The notes under the pieces were generated by a model that saw only the letters and a program-made list of their open reading frames with translations, was not told the origin of the DNA and did no database searches. From positions 1 through 31,871 of IMG/VR virus record IMGVR_UViG_3300031659_000049: a stretch of DNA of 31,871 nt; one strand, given 5' to 3'. Both the position numbers and the translations under genes were made by a program. Positions 3,205-31,871 of the stretch are shown here, piece by piece. The number at the start of each line of letters is the position of its first letter. Position 1 is the stretch's first letter. The stretch comes from a virus.

Positions 3205-6200
3205 TAGCTACAGCCTCCTTTTAGTTTGTTTAGCACTTTACCACCTGCGGCCATGTTTAACACTCTCATAGGATCATCCGCGTCCATGTACGCAGTCCCT
3301 GCGCCTTCGTTGTACGGTAAGCCTGTGAGTTTATTTATACGCTCGTCAGGTTCTATAGGCGCATTAGGCACAGGTGTGGATACTTCGCCTCCTGTAGCTT
3401 TAGGCATTAGCCCTGCTTCTTCACGCTCTTCAGGTGTTAAAGGCGCGTTAGATTCTAAGAAAGAATTGTTGGTATCAACTTTTATACTTCCTTCTGGCGC
3501 ACTAAAATTATAATTTTTTAAATTTCCTAACGTAAGAAGATCCATTTCCTCGTAAGCTTTCCATTGCTCAAATTCAGCTTTGTTTATTCCTTGGTTAAAA
3601 CCTTCTATAAATTCAGGAGTTTGTCGAGCAAGTGCTTCAAGTCTATAGGCAGTAGGATCGTGACGCGGAGCTAGGGGTACAAACCGCCCCTCTAAAATAC
3701 TCCCCGCTTTAGCAGGAGAAATTTTATTTTTTATTAAAAGCTCAAAGGCTTCTTCAGGGGTTTTTATTCTAGCGTATGCTGAAGCCTTAATCCACAAATC
3801 TTGTTGATACTGAAACTCAACAGCATTTGTTCTATAAAAGTCTCGCGTCATCTCTTCATCTGTGCTTTCTAAATTCACGCTATCTGTTTTGTTCTGATTA
3901 TTCTGAAGCTTGTAATCTTCAATCGCCCACTTTAAATACTCATCTGCAAGATAGGGTTCCTTTTTAATTCCAAACTGTTCTAGTTTAGCGTACTCAGGAT
4001 CACGAAAACGACCAGACCACTTATTAGATTTTTCATTAAGAGCATCTTTTAATTTTATTAAATTAGTAACAGATCCCGGAATTAATGGTTTAAATCCTTC
4101 AGTAAGTACAGTTCGGAGGTGATCAACATTACTATCTTTATCTGGAAACAGTTGCCGCCCTTGTCTGTCTTCATTATCTTTAGAAAGTGCGGCAGTCGCC
4201 ATATCAATCCAAGGTGATAAGACCATAGACTCCGCTGTAAAAGGATCTGTTAAAGTTTTTATGTATGTCCCTGCCGCCCCTAGCATATAAGCGTCTAGTT
4301 CTTCGCCTTTTAGTTGACCGCTAATAATCCTATCGTATGCCGCTACAAAAGGTTCTTTCATATAATAATATGAGTTTAAAAATTCTGTATTAGTAGTAAA
4401 GTAGTTACCTTCATCATCCATAGAATAAATTAAATCGTGTGCTGAACTAAACTTACTAGACTTTAAAACTCTGCGATCTTCTACTTCTTGATCGTCCATA
4501 TTATAATGATCGTAAGAGCTTTTTGCAAGATACCCATATCCCATATTAGCTGTAGCAAAACCTGCGGCTCTTCGAAGACCACGCATTTTTATAACACGGT
4601 TATCAGAAGCAATTTCTTTAGCCACTTGTTGTACAATGTTTAGACTTGTACGTACTACCTCTACTGGAAAAGAAATATAGTTTCCTAAAGGTATGTTACG
4701 CGCCTGTTGAAATCCCGGAGAAATATTTTGATAGGTGGGAATAGTCTTTTGCACTAAATTAGCAGATCTTCGTTTTAACAGTTCATCAGTTTCATTAGGA
4801 AAAGCTTTGCGTAAAGTTTTAAGCTCTGACTCAAAAGCAATTATTTTAGAAAAATCATCTACGGCCCCATAAACGTCTTGAGGTTTTTTAGCAAGCTTTG
4901 TAGCAAATTTAACAGCCTTAGATTTTCCTGCTCCTATTGTTCTAGATACACTATCTGAACCTTGAAAGCCATCAGAAAGCATGTCTCGAAATTGATTTAA
5001 CTTGACGCTTGAGTCAATTACTCCGTACCCTTGCATCTCTGCTAGATACGAAGCACTTTTTTTCTCGTCAACTTTATATAGTCCTGTAACACGACCAAGA
5101 CCTGCTCTCGCTCCCAAGATTTCATTCTCTAAAGTACCAAGAGCTTTTAAACCTCCCATGCTCAAAGGGTTATGTCCGTTAGCTACAAGAAACGAGGCGC
5201 TTCCAACAGCGTTACGCGCTTGAGTAACATGATTAAATACTGTTTGCATAGATTGTGCTACACCTTGTGCGCCTACATAAAATCTCCATGCAGTCCCGCT
5301 TGCACTTTTTGCTGACAGGGTATCAAATGTGTTTTGTTTATTTAAAACAGCCTTCTCTATTTCAGGAGTAGTCCACTTGTTATCCAGTATAGAATTAGTG
5401 CCTTTAATTTGCACAGTTAATCCGCGATTTACATTTTCTGTTGATTGAATGTATCCGTTTTTTCCTTTTGATAACTGATCTACAACATTATAGTATTGTT
5501 GCATTTCAGCTATACGCGAAAGCTTTGCAAGAGATAAAACAATTTTTTCACTAGGGTCGGTAATCTCTCCTAATAGCGCCCTTACTTCAGGATCGAGTTC
5601 TTTCTTTTTTCTTAATTTAGCTACTTTATTAATTTGATTTACATAGTCTACAACTTCGTCACTGTTTCCAAGTTTCTTTTCAATTTGTATCTTAGCTTGT
5701 TTAAGAGCTTTTGCGTTTGATACAGTCTTCCCTCTTTTTAATGCTTTAGCTTGAATTTTAGCAACATAATATTCTTCAGCGTCTTTCATAACTTTAGAGG
5801 TTGGTTTGTATCCGCTGTCTTCAAAAGCGCGGTACGTAGATCGTATATATTTTCCAAGGTTTGCGATTAGTGTTGCTTTAGACTCATCACTAAATCCTTT
5901 CATGTTTATAACGCGAGTTGTTAGACCGTCTTGAAGTTTACGAAAACTTAAAATTTCACTTGCAACATCTTCAGGAACATCATACTTCTTAGCAAGGGCA
6001 GAAACTTGTTTATTAGGCTTCATGTTTATTATGTCAGTAAGATCAGTTTCTAATAACCTAGTTGTTTTAGAAATTAAATCTTTATTATTTCCCGCGCTAT
6101 TTAATGCGCGATCTAAATGAGTTGCAACAATTTGAGCATCTTGTACAAGTTGTTTCTGTGTAAACTTAGCGTTTTGTTGTGCGTGATGCATTAATGGTGT

Positions 6201-28182: not shown

Positions 28183-29862
28183 TCAATAACCAAATGTTGA
28201 GTCTACAGGGCTATATAATCTTTCCCGATGAAACTGTCTCATTTGACTTATCGTGTCGTTGATGCGTGGTCGTGACATAATCAGATAACGTAGTGCATCG
28301 TAAGCGTGATCAGGTGCATGAGTATCTACGTCTTCTGGGTTGCGTTTATCCAGAGGAATACTTTGTAGTTCGCGTATCAGGTTCGGGCATGTATTAAATA
28401 ATTGTATTTTGGGCCTACCGCTTTGCATGACTTTTAAGTATTCGTGGATTTGAATCTTTCCTTGTATCCTATTCTTATCTGCTCTCCTGAGCTTGTGTCC
28501 TGCTCTCTGAAGCGTTTCGCCTATCGTTGGGCCTGTAGTACCTGTTCGGCTCCAACACGCTGTATCAAGCACTCCTTGGACTGAGAAGGGGTCTTGCATC
28601 TCCATGGTTGTAATCAGTTCTGCAAGCTCTGTACCTAACAATCCTTTTTGGTATAGTTCTCTGTATACTATTAATGTTCCATCACTGGGATCAACAGCCG
28701 CCCAAATACAGGCGCTCTCTGATGCGTAACCGTAGTCAATTCCTTTTACGCGCTCCCAGTGTACTGGTATTTCAAAAGGCGTAATAACATGTAGCTTTGG
28801 AATAAACTCTGTGAAGGCCGCACCTTCTGCAACATCCCAATTACCTTCTAGGAGTTGCTGACGCTGTGTAGGCGGTAAAGCCTTCAGCATCTTTTCATAG
28901 TTTCCATCTGTTGCTAGGAAAGGATTATCCTGTAGCCTAGCGGGTATAAACTTCCGTGTTAAGCCGTCAGCCCCTTCAAAGGACTCACAGGGTACAGCAG
29001 GGTCAATGTATCTCTTCTTAACCCATGTAGCTCCCGCGCCGCCCGGATTCGCTGTACAACGCATGTAGCATGTAATTGCGCTATCAGTTGTCCGTAACCG
29101 CGATGCAAGATAGTTCCAAGCAAACTCTGTAGGAAGATGTGTAATCTCATCAAACCCTATCCAACTATATGCTTGTCCTTGGTAGCGGTATACGTCTGCA
29201 TCACGCTCCAAGAATCCAAACTCTATCTTTGCACCGCTTGGGAAGTTCCAAAGTTTCTCTACTTCCTTATACTTACATCCCGGAAATGCTTTCGGGTACA
29301 ACTCTCTACTCTTGTCTATAAGCTCTCTAAGTTCTGGCATAGAGCGTCTTATGATTAGACCCCTGTGAGCGGATCTGTGGGCGTAACGTAATGGATCTAC
29401 TAACATAGCGTAGGACTTACCACCTCCTGCCGCTCCACCGTAGAGAACATCTGTTTCTCCTGCGGCAAGGAAGTCTTCTTGTGGGCCTTCGTTGGCCTTG
29501 AAGATAACATCCTCTTGAGCTTCAGTTGCTAAAGAAGAAGGTAAGGATGCTAGTTCAACGTCTTCTATGACATTAGAGCTTTCTGTACCTTCTAACTTAT
29601 TAAGAGTCTTTGTAGTTGTACTTATGGACTTCTTAAAACTATCGACTTTAGCTTGAGCCGCCTTTAATTTCTTTTTCTTTTCTTTTACTGTTCTTTCTGC
29701 ATCCATCTTTGCTTTAGTCTTTGAGTGGTAAGTATAACCACGCCCTTTAGACCCTTTAGCTCTACCTGCTTTCTTACGCGGAGTGCCGTCAACCTTGAGT
29801 ACGAAATTGCCTTCTTCGTCTTTAAGGTAGTTATCAGGATTAACATCCCAATCATCTTGCAT
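28183..29862 (-). CDS. terL: Terminase large subunit
   Basis: A 559-residue ATPase-nuclease that packages DNA. Walker A is GGAAGGGKS (142-150), Walker B is WIGFDE (234-239, D238/E239), and the CTANPGG coupling motif is at 269-275. The C-terminal RNase H-like nuclease shows D376 in GIDYG, D433 in VLDTA and D518/D522 in DHAYDAL. The first 110 residues are an extra Lys-rich coiled-coil arm (KAGRAKGSKGRGYTYHSK, then VKEKKKKLKAAQAKVDSFKK), which may hold the small subunit or DNA. The start overlaps the HTH-like gene by 11 bases and has only a weak ribosome site, so translation may be coupled. Confidence 0.95.
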   Translation of the reverse strand: MQDDWDVNPDNYLKDEEGNFVLKVDGTPRKKAGRAKGSKGRGYTYHSKTKAKMDAERTVKEKKKKLKAAQAKVDSFKKSISTTTKTLNKLEGTESSNVIEDVELASLPSSLATEAQEDVIFKANEGPQEDFLAAGETDVLYGGAAGGGKSYAMLVDPLRYAHRSAHRGLIIRRSMPELRELIDKSRELYPKAFPGCKYKEVEKLWNFPSGAKIEFGFLERDADVYRYQGQAYSWIGFDEITHLPTEFAWNYLASRLRTTDSAITCYMRCTANPGGAGATWVKKRYIDPAVPCESFEGADGLTRKFIPARLQDNPFLATDGNYEKMLKALPPTQRQQLLEGNWDVAEGAAFTEFIPKLHVITPFEIPVHWERVKGIDYGYASESACIWAAVDPSDGTLIVYRELYQKGLLGTELAELITTMEMQDPFSVQGVLDTACWSRTGTTGPTIGETLQRAGHKLRRADKNRIQGKIQIHEYLKVMQSGRPKIQLFNTCPNLIRELQSIPLDKRNPEDVDTHAPDHAYDALRYLIMSRPRINDTISQMRQFHRERLYSPVDSTFGY

Positions 29863-30079
29863 CTTTAGACGCTATCTTCTTTAAACCACTATGAGAGAGC
29901 TTGCGGCCTGTTTGATACTCTAGCCATATAGATCCTTCGCGCAGACTTAATGATTCACTCTTAATTAAATCTACAACCATGTCTAAAGCCTCTATCTCTT
30001 TAAGGATTGGCTCTAGTAAAGCATCGTTCTTCTCATCTAGCTTATAGCCAAAAGGAATAGTGCTACTAGACCTCCTCAT
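29852..30079 (-). CDS. Small HTH-like protein between the terminase genes
   Basis: A 75-residue protein beginning MRRSSSTIPFGYKLDEKN. The IPFGYKLDE...LLEPILKEIEALDMV...SLSLREGSIWLEYQTGRKLSHSGLKKI pattern is like the helix-turn-helix (recombinase-linker) module found in serine recombinases and in stand-alone phage proteins next to terL. It may bind DNA or the terminase complex. It has AAGG six bases before the ATG and overlaps terS by 14 bases and terL by 11. No catalytic domain is present, so it is not itself a recombinase. Confidence 0.82.
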   Translation of the reverse strand: MRRSSSTIPFGYKLDEKNDALLEPILKEIEALDMVVDLIKSESLSLREGSIWLEYQTGRKLSHSGLKKIASKDAR

Positions 30080-30464
30080 AATTACCTTCTATTACTGTTT
30101 CTGTCTTAGCAGGAAGTATAAATAAACCTCCAGAAGTATTAACAGTAACATCTAGCCTATCTGTCTTGCCTAATCCTACACGGTCTAGGATGGTCTGTGC
30201 GGCCTGTATACGCATATTAGCCTGTGGGATAGGTTCTGCACTATCCATAATGTGTACAAGCTTTAAAGCGGCTTTAGGGGCGCTCTGCGCTAAGATGTTT
30301 GTAGCTAGATCTAGTATCTCAGTCTTCAAGCTTTTAACAACGCTATTGATGCTAGAGTTTGAGTACCCTGCCATCTCTCCTGCAAGCTTAGTGTCACCAT
30401 TACAGGTTACTAAGTTATCTATGAAGGACTGTTGTTTAGTTGTTAATTCTTTATTCTTTGTCAT
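30066..30464 (-). CDS. terS: Terminase small subunit
   Basis: A 132-residue protein whose first 50 residues (ELTTKQQSFIDNLVTCNGDTKLAGEMAGYSNSSINSVVKSL) form the HTH of the P22-like small terminase class (LTxKQQxFI...GD..LA...AGYS). The later part is a helix (NMRIQAAQTILDRVGLGK) followed by a beta C-terminus. It recognises the packaging site and activates TerL. No ribosome site precedes the ATG. Instead a perfect TTGACA-17-TATAAT promoter ends eight bases before the start codon, so the transcript probably begins at or one base before the AUG. It is the first gene of the minus-strand block. Confidence 0.9.
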   Translation of the reverse strand: MTKNKELTTKQQSFIDNLVTCNGDTKLAGEMAGYSNSSINSVVKSLKTEILDLATNILAQSAPKAALKLVHIMDSAEPIPQANMRIQAAQTILDRVGLGKTDRLDVTVNTSGGLFILPAKTETVIEGNYEEV

Positions 30465-30471
30465 GTACTAC

Positions 30472-30500
30472 ATTATAGCCCTAGAATGGAGGTTTGTCAA
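30472..30500 (-). promoter_or_regulatory. Perfect consensus sigma-70 promoter for terS (leaderless)
   Basis: On the minus strand TTGACA (30500-30495), a 17-base spacer and TATAAT (30477-30472). The -10 is preceded by GGGC. A start 7-8 bases past the -10 falls at 30465/30464, which is the A of the terS ATG or one base before it. Confidence 0.9.
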
Positions 30501-30512
30501 GTGTTATTTTAC

Positions 30513-30527
30513 TTATTTGTTAAATAA
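30513..30527. promoter_or_regulatory. Dyad between the two divergent promoters
   Basis: TTATTT-GTT-AAATAA, 6-base arms and a 3-base centre, in the 41 bases between the two -35 boxes. A GTAC-GAAA-GTAC element (30530-30541) lies right against the plus-strand -35. Either could be an operator controlling both promoters, but AT-rich dyads can arise by chance. Confidence 0.45.
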
Positions 30528-30541
30528 AGGTACGAAAGTAC

Positions 30542-30570
30542 TTGACAGATTGCGAATCTGAGGCTATAAT
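30542..30570 (+). promoter_or_regulatory. Perfect consensus sigma-70 promoter, plus strand
   Basis: TTGACA (30542-30547), a 17-base spacer and TATAAT (30565-30570), again preceded by GGC. Expected start near 30577. It points away from the terS promoter and would give a leader of about 800 bases before the first plus-strand gene. Confidence 0.9.
30546..30560. promoter_or_regulatory. Operator-like dyad inside the plus-strand promoter
   Basis: CAGATT-GCG-AATCTG, with perfect 6-base arms, covers the last -35 bases and most of the spacer. A repressor bound here would block RNA polymerase. I see no second full copy in the window. Confidence 0.6.
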
Positions 30571-30594
30571 AGATATTAAGCCCTCAGGGTTATA

Positions 30595-30668
30595 TAGCCA
30601 TTCTAGGCTACCTATCTACAGACCCCTTTTCAACAAGGGGAAAAAGAATATCTTCTCCCCAACCCCTT
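30595..30668 (+). promoter_or_regulatory. Structured leader with competing hairpins
   Basis: In the predicted plus-strand leader, TAGCC (30595-30599) pairs with GGCTA (30606-30610). AAGGGG (30635-30640) can pair either with CCCCTT at 30623-30628 or with CCCCTT at 30663-30668; these two stems exclude each other. No T-run follows either, so a plain intrinsic terminator is unlikely. Confidence 0.5.
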
Positions 30669-30748
30669 TCCTGTATAGTCTTTAAAGCCCCGCCCCAATC
30701 TGGTACACACTCTAAACCTTCTCAAAATGTATAACATTGTGTATATAT

Positions 30749-30761
30749 GGGGGGGGAGGGG
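30749..30761. other. G8-A-G4 tract
   Basis: A homopurine run of eight G, one A and four G, with GTATATAT before it and GTATGGCGACC, then CCCC, after it. GGGG (30758-30761) can pair with CCCC (30774-30777). It is the only such tract in this AT-rich region. Confidence 0.7.
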
Positions 30762-30892
30762 TATGGCGACCTGCCCCGCCTAGACAGCCTACTATTTATA
30801 GTCGTTTTCAAGCGGGTCATGCGATCGCCTATCACACCTGAGCTTTAAAGTCCACATAAATTTAACAGATCTGAATCACTAGCAGAAAATAC

Positions 30893-30972
30893 CTTTGAAG
30901 TCTATCAAGTGTGCCAAATTAAATAAATTAAATAGCTTGATAACTGGTGTACAGTGTGATAGGACTCCAAAG
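30893..30972. repeat. Long imperfect inverted repeat, cruciform candidate
   Basis: CTTTGAAGTCTATCA (30893-30907) pairs with the reverse complement of 30957-30972: 14 pairs, one mismatch and one bulged base. Inside it, TATCAAG (30903-30909) and CTTGATA (30936-30942) form a second, partly overlapping pair. The loop is AT-rich (AAATTAAATAAATTAAATA). Confidence 0.65.
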
Positions 30973-31002
30973 CCTTCAAAGATCAATAGCTTTAAACTAT
31001 AA

Positions 31003-31046
31003 AGACTATATAAATTAATATCTTGCAATATACTTTTATATAGTCT
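31003..31046. repeat. Perfect 12-bp inverted repeat
   Basis: AGACTATATAAA (31003-31014) and TTTATATAGTCT (31035-31046), separated by 20 bases. The arms are AT-rich and each holds a TATAGTC copy. Confidence 0.8.
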
Positions 31047-31245
31047 AAGGAATCCTACAAGATTCTAAAACCCTCTCTAATCCATTCTAAGCCATTCTAG
31101 CCATACCCTTTATGATTAATCCTATTTCCTTTTTAAACCCTTCAGAAGCTATTAGACGCTATTGAGTCTCTATAGTCACAGCTAGTTTAAATAAACTATT
31201 GTATTATCTTTTATTGTGTGTTACTCAAGACTCCTTATGTAAATA

Positions 31246-31262
31246 TTTATAACGGTTATAAA
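31246..31262. promoter_or_regulatory. 17-bp palindrome, operator candidate
   Basis: TTTATAAC-G-GTTATAAA: 8-base perfect arms around one base, 40 bases before the -35 box of the third promoter and 123 bases before the plus-strand gene. This is the form of a homodimeric regulator site. Confidence 0.6.
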
Positions 31263-31266
31263 ATCT

Positions 31267-31290
31267 ATTTAATTTAATTTAATTTATTTT
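31267..31290. repeat. AT-only tandem repeat (TTTAA units)
   Basis: Four tandem TTTAA-type units give a 22-base stretch with no G or C just before the promoter at 31302. This is typical of easily melted DNA (UP-like element or unwinding element). Confidence 0.7.
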
Positions 31291-31301
31291 GCTATGGGGT
31301 G

Positions 31302-31330
31302 TTGACATAGGGATTCAACTAGTCCAGTAT
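31302..31330 (+). promoter_or_regulatory. Candidate promoter of the plus-strand gene
   Basis: A perfect TTGACA (31302-31307) and a 17-base spacer lead to CAGTAT (31325-31330), a weak -10. TATGCA three bases on is an alternative with a long spacer. The AT tract upstream may act as an UP element. Weak -10 plus nearby palindrome suggests regulation by an activator. Confidence 0.5.
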
Positions 31331-31384
31331 GCACCTATCAACTTAAAAAACTAAATAACTTTAACCAATACAGGAAATACTAAA

Positions 31385-31871
31385 ATGTCTAATCAAATAA
31401 TCACTACTGAAATTAGTCTTAAAATTGCAATCAAATGTGCCAACGGATTGAAAGCCGGAACAAAAAATAAAGCAATGGTGACAGAGCTAACAACTAGCGC
31501 AGTCATGGCGCACCTAAGCGGTGTTGGTGTTGTTCCTTCGGTCGGCATTAGCGGTGCAGATTTTATTCTTGCTCTTTGGGGAGCCTTGGAAGATAACAAA
31601 GAGGCTCTTGCCGTCTATCGCGCCCAGTTGAACCGCATTAGTAAAAAGATACGCAAAGAGAACGGCGACAAAAACCCTTTAGCTCTAACAGTTAAAGATG
31701 GTGAACTAGTCGATGTTATACCGCGCACCGCTAAAGGCGGTACTGGCGAAGGCGAAGGCGAAGGCGCAGAGACTAGCGCACCAGATACCGCTATAGATCC
31801 CGCGATTAAACTAGCTTTTGAGGTGCTCTCTCGCATGATTAAAAAGGAAAAAGACGAGAAGCAATTGGACG
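31385..31871 (+). CDS. Plus-strand gene of unknown function, 5' part (runs off right edge)
   Basis: An open frame of 162 codons with no stop, beginning MSNQIITTEISLKIAIKCAN. AGGA lies nine bases before the ATG and no earlier in-frame start exists. Features: a helical, Ala/Lys-rich first 60 residues, a basic helix (RAQLNRISKKIRKENG, about 78-93), an acidic Gly-Glu tract (GTGEGEGEGAE, from a GGCGAA triplicate at 31745-31766) and a second charged helix (SRMIKKEKDEKQLD). No family is recognised. The two minus-strand frames opposite are each shorter and have no ribosome site. As the first gene of the divergent arm it may be an early regulator or host-takeover protein; that is inference. Confidence 0.8.
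   Translation, partial: MSNQIITTEISLKIAIKCANGLKAGTKNKAMVTELTTSAVMAHLSGVGVVPSVGISGADFILALWGALEDNKEALAVYRAQLNRISKKIRKENGDKNPLALTVKDGELVDVIPRTAKGGTGEGEGEGAETSAPDTAIDPAIKLAFEVLSRMIKKEKDEKQLD

Follow-up and report, generated by a model that had tools for sequence, protein, structure and literature searches.

A conserved divergent promoter pair with covarying spacer tags as a putative bidirectional transcription hub in an HTVC103P-type marine podophage

When a phage genome is laid out as two arms that run away from each other, from where is each arm read, and by which polymerase? This question is raised by a 31.9-kb virus record (IMGVR_UViG_3300031659_000049), analysed here over its whole length of 31,871 nt, hereafter the window. 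The terminase, portal, capsid and tail genes run leftwards on the minus strand from position 30464, the early arm lies on the plus strand to the right, and two consensus promoters stand back to back where the arms part. The two arms and the gene used as bait for relatives are:

133 to 30464, minus strand: late arm, whose packaging, head, tail and lysis-end genes all share this strand; no other promoter-like site above 10/12
28183 to 29862, minus strand: terL, large terminase, 62% identical to the TerL of HTVC103P; bait for collecting relatives
31385 to 31870, plus strand: first early-arm ORF, which leaves the window edge and is 175-179 aa long in near-identical contigs

The window TerL is 62-68% identical over most of its length to those of the pelagiphages HTVC103P, HTVC104P and HTVC115P; with the TerL of HMO-2011-type phages, it shares 46-50% identity. 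With its related TerL, portal and capsid and a late arm opposite the replication arm, the phage belongs to the HTVC103P/HMO-2011 type, whose members are widespread in the ocean. The near-identical contig L139 extends the early arm with genes for a DUF932 protein, a single-strand-binding-type protein and a primase-helicase, followed by the start of a polymerase gene assigned from its resemblance to the annotated HTVC103P arm. In a 48.9-kb relative (G001), the arms part at the promoter pair and meet again at about 18.6 kb. In contrast to the kinship in TerL, the intergenic DNA has no detectable similarity to any phage record, as blastn of this region against them gave no match. Our literature search found nothing on how HTVC103P- or HMO-2011-type phages order their gene expression, and no transcript data for the group.

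An exact-match scan for TTGACA-N15-19-TATAAT returned exactly two matches in the window, confirming the first-pass annotation of two divergent, perfect TTGACA-17-TATAAT promoters with 41 bp between them:

30472 to 30500, minus strand: P_L, the late promoter, ahead of terS and the late arm; TTGACA at 30500-30495, 17-nt spacer AACCTCCATTCTAGGGC, TATAAT at 30477-30472; exact match, kept in relatives
30542 to 30570, plus strand: P_E, the early promoter; TTGACA at 30542-30547, 17-nt spacer GATTGCGAATCTGAGGC, TATAAT at 30565-30570; exact match, kept in relatives
30501 to 30541, no strand: AT-rich 41-bp stretch separating the two -35 boxes in the window; its length differs among relatives

Both promoters have the sigma70-type consensus with a spacing within 16-18 nt, although scores against this consensus may not reflect true strength in SAR11 or similar hosts. 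Exact matches of this kind are as rare as had been claimed, with 0.09 expected by chance per window and two at once in none of 100 shuffles. In the remainder of the window, the best promoter-like sites reach 10/12, and sites of at least 9/12 are no commoner than in shuffles. The AT-rich stretch between the -35 boxes may hold UP elements. A palindrome, GTACGAAAGTAC, at 30530-30541 abuts the P_E -35 box upstream, and is also found upstream of an unrelated promoter in contig L133, near position 1247.

The pair is strongly conserved. It occurs in nearly every locus with enough sequence among a first set of relatives, gathered through a TerL 81-100% identical to that of the window, and in 110 of the 111 loci with enough sequence upstream of terS in a second, wider set that overlaps the first. 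Summed over both promoters, the score in the second set is 24/24 in 74 loci, 23/24 in 35 and 22/24 in one. The cultured HTVC103P, HTVC104P and HTVC115P share with the window the two-arm layout, the divergent pair and a terS that begins 6-7 nt past the -10 box; both promoters are perfect in HTVC115P, while HTVC103P and HTVC104P have one perfect and one 11/12. The pair is thus real and conserved, and in all likelihood functional. Since the distance between the -35 boxes ranges from 6 to 124 bp among relatives, the two promoters do not constitute a fixed overlapping complex.

As for the polymerase, Sigma70_r2 was found in none of 17 records, some of them complete (controls positive in 10 genomes), and HTH_3, the domain of CI/Cro-type repressors, in none of the 17 (controls positive); PF00940, the single-subunit RNA polymerase, gave no match, nor did it match any control genome. 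Because no sigma factor or CI-type repressor was found, the host RNA polymerase with sigma70 probably opens both arms, as previously proposed, and the lack of any other strong promoter in the late arm argues for the same. The promoter pair, at the divergence of the arms, would then be the single point of departure for both. Structural genes read by sigma70 polymerase, earlier regarded as unusual, are not without precedent: all three gene classes of T5 are reported to use it (PMC7472727), and in Cluster O mycobacteriophages, which have divergent SigA promoters, one SigA promoter drives a leftward gene in the structural operon (PMC4351075).

In the late direction, transcription is predicted to begin at the first gene itself:

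30066 to 30464, minus strand: terS, small terminase (PHROG 2538); ATG 7 nt past the P_L -10 box, in-frame TAG at 30470-30468, no Shine-Dalgarno sequence

The P_L -10 box ends at 30472 and the terS ATG lies at 30464, so that a start at the usual distance would hit the ATG or its neighbour. Shine-Dalgarno-like sequences precede 20 of the 22 late genes in the window, and terS has none. With the -10 box 7 nt before the ATG and no ribosome-binding sequence, the terS message is probably leaderless: terS has the predicted +1 at or next to its start codon and the missing Shine-Dalgarno sequence that characterize leaderless genes. The relatives are consistent with this prediction. Of 52 distinct relatives, 26 have 6-7 nt between the -10 box and the ATG, and the others have 29-46 nt; in the later loci (66 distinct ones, partly the same as in the first set), the gap measures either 6-10 nt or at least 29 nt. 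Gaps of 11-28 nt were found in neither sample. A bimodal distribution of this kind would be expected of messages that come in two forms, leaderless ones and ones whose leader has room for a ribosome site. The predicted leaderless late message is a point that the first-pass annotation did not contain.

The early side differs from the late one downstream of the promoter:

30577 to 31384, plus strand: early leader, about 0.8 kb, with CTTTAAAG palindromes at 30680 and 30843
30579 to 30591, plus strand: stem-loop AGCCC-TCA-GGGTT, the predicted 5' terminus of the early RNA; 53 of 57 distinct relatives can pair over 5 bp or more here

The predicted P_E transcript opens with this stem-loop, whose stem is conserved and whose sequence varies. 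The leader contains conserved blocks, and the palindrome CTTTAAAG, present in the leaders of most relatives, is about 18-fold commoner there than in whole genomes; these copies are possibly origin or protein-binding repeats. Protection of the early RNA, or an origin, is our guess for the role of the stem-loop and leader. An Rfam search of the leader gave only a sub-threshold chance match. A conserved G-rich block, GGGGGGGGAGGGG...CCTGCCCC, lies in the leader at window positions 30750-30780 and in relatives, and could fold or mark a replication element.

Other promoters were noticed in the early arms of relatives. The gene for the ssDNA-binding protein is preceded by a TTGACA-17-TATACT promoter (L139 12073-12101, L112 8791, L118 7342), with an inverted repeat around its -10 box (CGTGG-TATACT-CCACG or TGTGG-TATACT-CCACA) that is common to phages with different spacer tags; this is likely a separate middle promoter with its own operator. 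A late-strand promoter also occurs within the early arm near the DUF932 gene (L135 4112-4155, L050 at about 5.3 kb, L061 at about 5.0 kb), and in L135 a second strong promoter diverges from it.

Host polymerase with its main sigma factor would thus start at P_E on the plus strand to give an early RNA made of a stem-loop and then a long leader. On the minus strand, it would start at P_L, at or beside the A of the terS start codon, to give a leaderless late mRNA covering the packaging, structural and lysis arm of about 30 kb. What might control both starts is suggested by the spacers. The observation that the same GGC stands directly 5' of both -10 boxes holds, and the GGC turned out to belong to a larger, covarying 7-nt tag:

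30478 to 30484, minus strand: P_L tag CTAGGGC, occupying the 7 nt next to the -10 box on its 5' side; covaries with the P_E tag across phages
30558 to 30564, plus strand: P_E tag CTGAGGC, identical to the P_L tag at 5/7 positions; covaries with the P_L tag across phages

These 7 nt vary between phages and tend to agree between the two promoters of one phage. The window has GGC, and tags in other phages include AATATCRCAG, CAGGTG, TAGTCC, AATCAAGTAG, TACGGG and TCAACCC. Over 43 distinct promoter pairs, the match observed in the last 8 spacer nt was reached by none of 20,000 permutations, a procedure that counts related phages as independent; in the same pairs, the first 7 nt examined have no within-phage excess by permutation. 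When each of the about 16 tag classes is represented once, a sampling that corrects for kinship only in part, the match is 4.13/7 against 2.49 +/- 0.34 (p <= 0.0015), and in 23 distinct pairs from outside the first sample it is 3.70 against 2.95 +/- 0.23 (p = 0.0012). Position by position, the within-genome excess falls at -7 to -1, with position -28 also significant; neither in the 5' half of the spacer nor, in general, in the flanks does the match exceed that of cross-genome pairing. The effect is weaker in distant relatives, and several phages (L255, L232, L046 and L064) carry clearly unlike tags at their two promoters, so that it is real but not universal.

These exceptions fit an alternative in which the two promoters are strong constitutive host promoters with no shared operator, and the likeness of the tags comes from ancestry, a spacer preference of the host polymerase, or chance. 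Such an arrangement would also agree with the regulator searches, which identified none (HTH_3 in the 17 records; the 22 early proteins of the window's phage), and the gene order along the 30-kb operon could by itself delay the lysis genes. However, pairing promoters across genomes, by which base composition and host preference are preserved, yields clearly fewer matches, and the match is confined to the -10-proximal half and was replicated in new loci. We therefore hold this explanation to be possible but improbable.

The geometry of the locus raises two further explanations, as the promoters together form an imperfect inverted repeat (31 nt, 74% complementary). Gene conversion, that is, templated correction between the arms of this repeat, could keep the tags alike with no selection for a binding site, but such correction should span the whole spacer or begin at the loop (-35) side, and the -35-proximal half has no within-genome excess; we regard it as unlikely. 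Alternatively, the inverted tags could be a recombination site at which the intervening segment inverts and swaps the promoters. One pair of loci (L067/L076) does align better with one segment inverted, but the sequence concerned is AT-rich and the case weak; inverted matches in other similar pairs are only slightly better than the direct alignment, and no clear pair in two orientations was found among the relatives compared. A search of the 17 records, some partial, for tyrosine integrases (PF00589; this type only, not serine recombinases) also found none. Segment inversion is thus not supported and appears most improbable.

We consider more probable that the tag is a putative shared asymmetric operator, a reading drawn from sequence comparison. 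The site would be phage-specific, asymmetric and common to both promoters, occupying the 7 nt ahead of each -10 box, and a sequence-specific regulator most likely binds both copies in the same orientation relative to each promoter. The evidence for such a site is the statistical covariation of the tags in the one-per-class and new-pair tests. Palindromic operators that seemed visible by eye in the spacers were rejected, as dyads equal those in shuffles (p about 0.6), and so were dispersed stoperator-like sites, of which none was found: in eight phages, copies of the tag elsewhere in the genome occur at about the level of simulated sequence. Because the -35 and -10 boxes are already consensus and their spacing ideal, we infer that a factor bound in the spacer more likely blocks polymerase than helps it, and the bound regulator would thus repress both promoters. 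Given the same place and orientation of the site in both, this factor should act on the two arms alike. The suggestion of the first-pass annotation that a factor at this site delays the late arm is therefore not supported in that form, since one type of site at the same position in both promoters implies the same sense of action on both arms.

Which protein might read the tag? TerS proteins bind DNA, and terS is the first gene of the late arm, so that TerS could read the tag and feed back on both promoters. Yet phages that share a TerS helix (APTSINSVVK) differ in their tags, and the CAG tag is found with several TerS helices; TerS as tag reader was rejected, and we give it hardly any weight. 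No member of a transcription-factor family was found among the 22 early proteins of the window's phage, and the other candidates were also set aside. The first early gene is of two unrelated types, each of which occurs, by inspection, with the same tags. A small HTH protein, 'H' (L016 early arm, 3707-3988), is partly associated with the tag (r = 0.34, p = 0.003, 14 loci) and is missing from several genomes, including the near-complete G001. A second one, hthA (L139 11776-11964), keeps nearly the same helix where the tags differ, and the phage collection contains no relative of it. The LexA-like gp30 has near-identical copies only in HTVC103P and HTVC104P, with no relative among the IMG/VR loci examined.

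Taken together, we favour, with modest confidence, a bidirectional transcription hub of an HTVC103P-type marine podophage, in which host polymerase would read both arms, the late message would start leaderless, and a tag-reading regulator would repress both promoters. More tentatively, and with considerable doubt, the tag could confer specificity on an immunity-like master switch in phages without integrase: each lineage would have its own asymmetric operator, present at both promoters, and a regulator to match, from an undescribed family. If so, one protein could silence the whole genome or exclude relatives, and a tag of the immunity-operator type would bear on whether apparently lytic phages coexist with or exclude each other. 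The shared 7-nt tag offers a testable handle toward finding the regulator. A genome with a single divergent pair whose tags match is a combination not found in the literature searched, which is not proof of its absence.

Three known systems resemble this arrangement in part. In phage lambda, the cI transcript from PRM is leaderless. The lambda immunity region has divergent promoters with CI/Cro operators (PMC6550527), and the window resembles it in having one hub with diverging arms, shared operators (here putative) and one leaderless transcript (here predicted). In contrast to lambda, the window's group yielded neither palindromic operators beyond chance in the spacers nor, among the 17 records (some partial), a CI-type HTH_3 protein or an integrase, a difference from the lambda switch on all three counts. 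The L5/Bxb1-type repressor system of Cluster A mycobacteriophages has asymmetric operators and stoperators that are oriented along transcription, group-specific and present at early promoters; each genome carries 20 to 30 of them along with an identified repressor gene (PMC9283540, PMC6550527). The tags, to judge from their covariation, may likewise be asymmetric, phage-specific sites that are oriented with transcription and placed at promoters, but the window's phage has two such putative sites rather than 20 to 30, and no repressor was found. In the PL1/PR2 region of Cluster O mycobacteriophages (the Corndog group), divergent host-type promoters lie in an AT-rich gap and both mRNAs are predicted to be leaderless, in genomes that have eight to nine promoters and carry a 17-bp palindrome more than 30 times (PMC4351075). 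The window shares the divergent host-type promoters, the AT-rich gap and a predicted leaderless mRNA, but its divergent promoters form a single pair, only one of the two RNAs is predicted to be leaderless, and the putative asymmetric site was found nowhere but at this pair. Divergent leaderless phage promoters are already known from such systems, and the shared tag is the new part.
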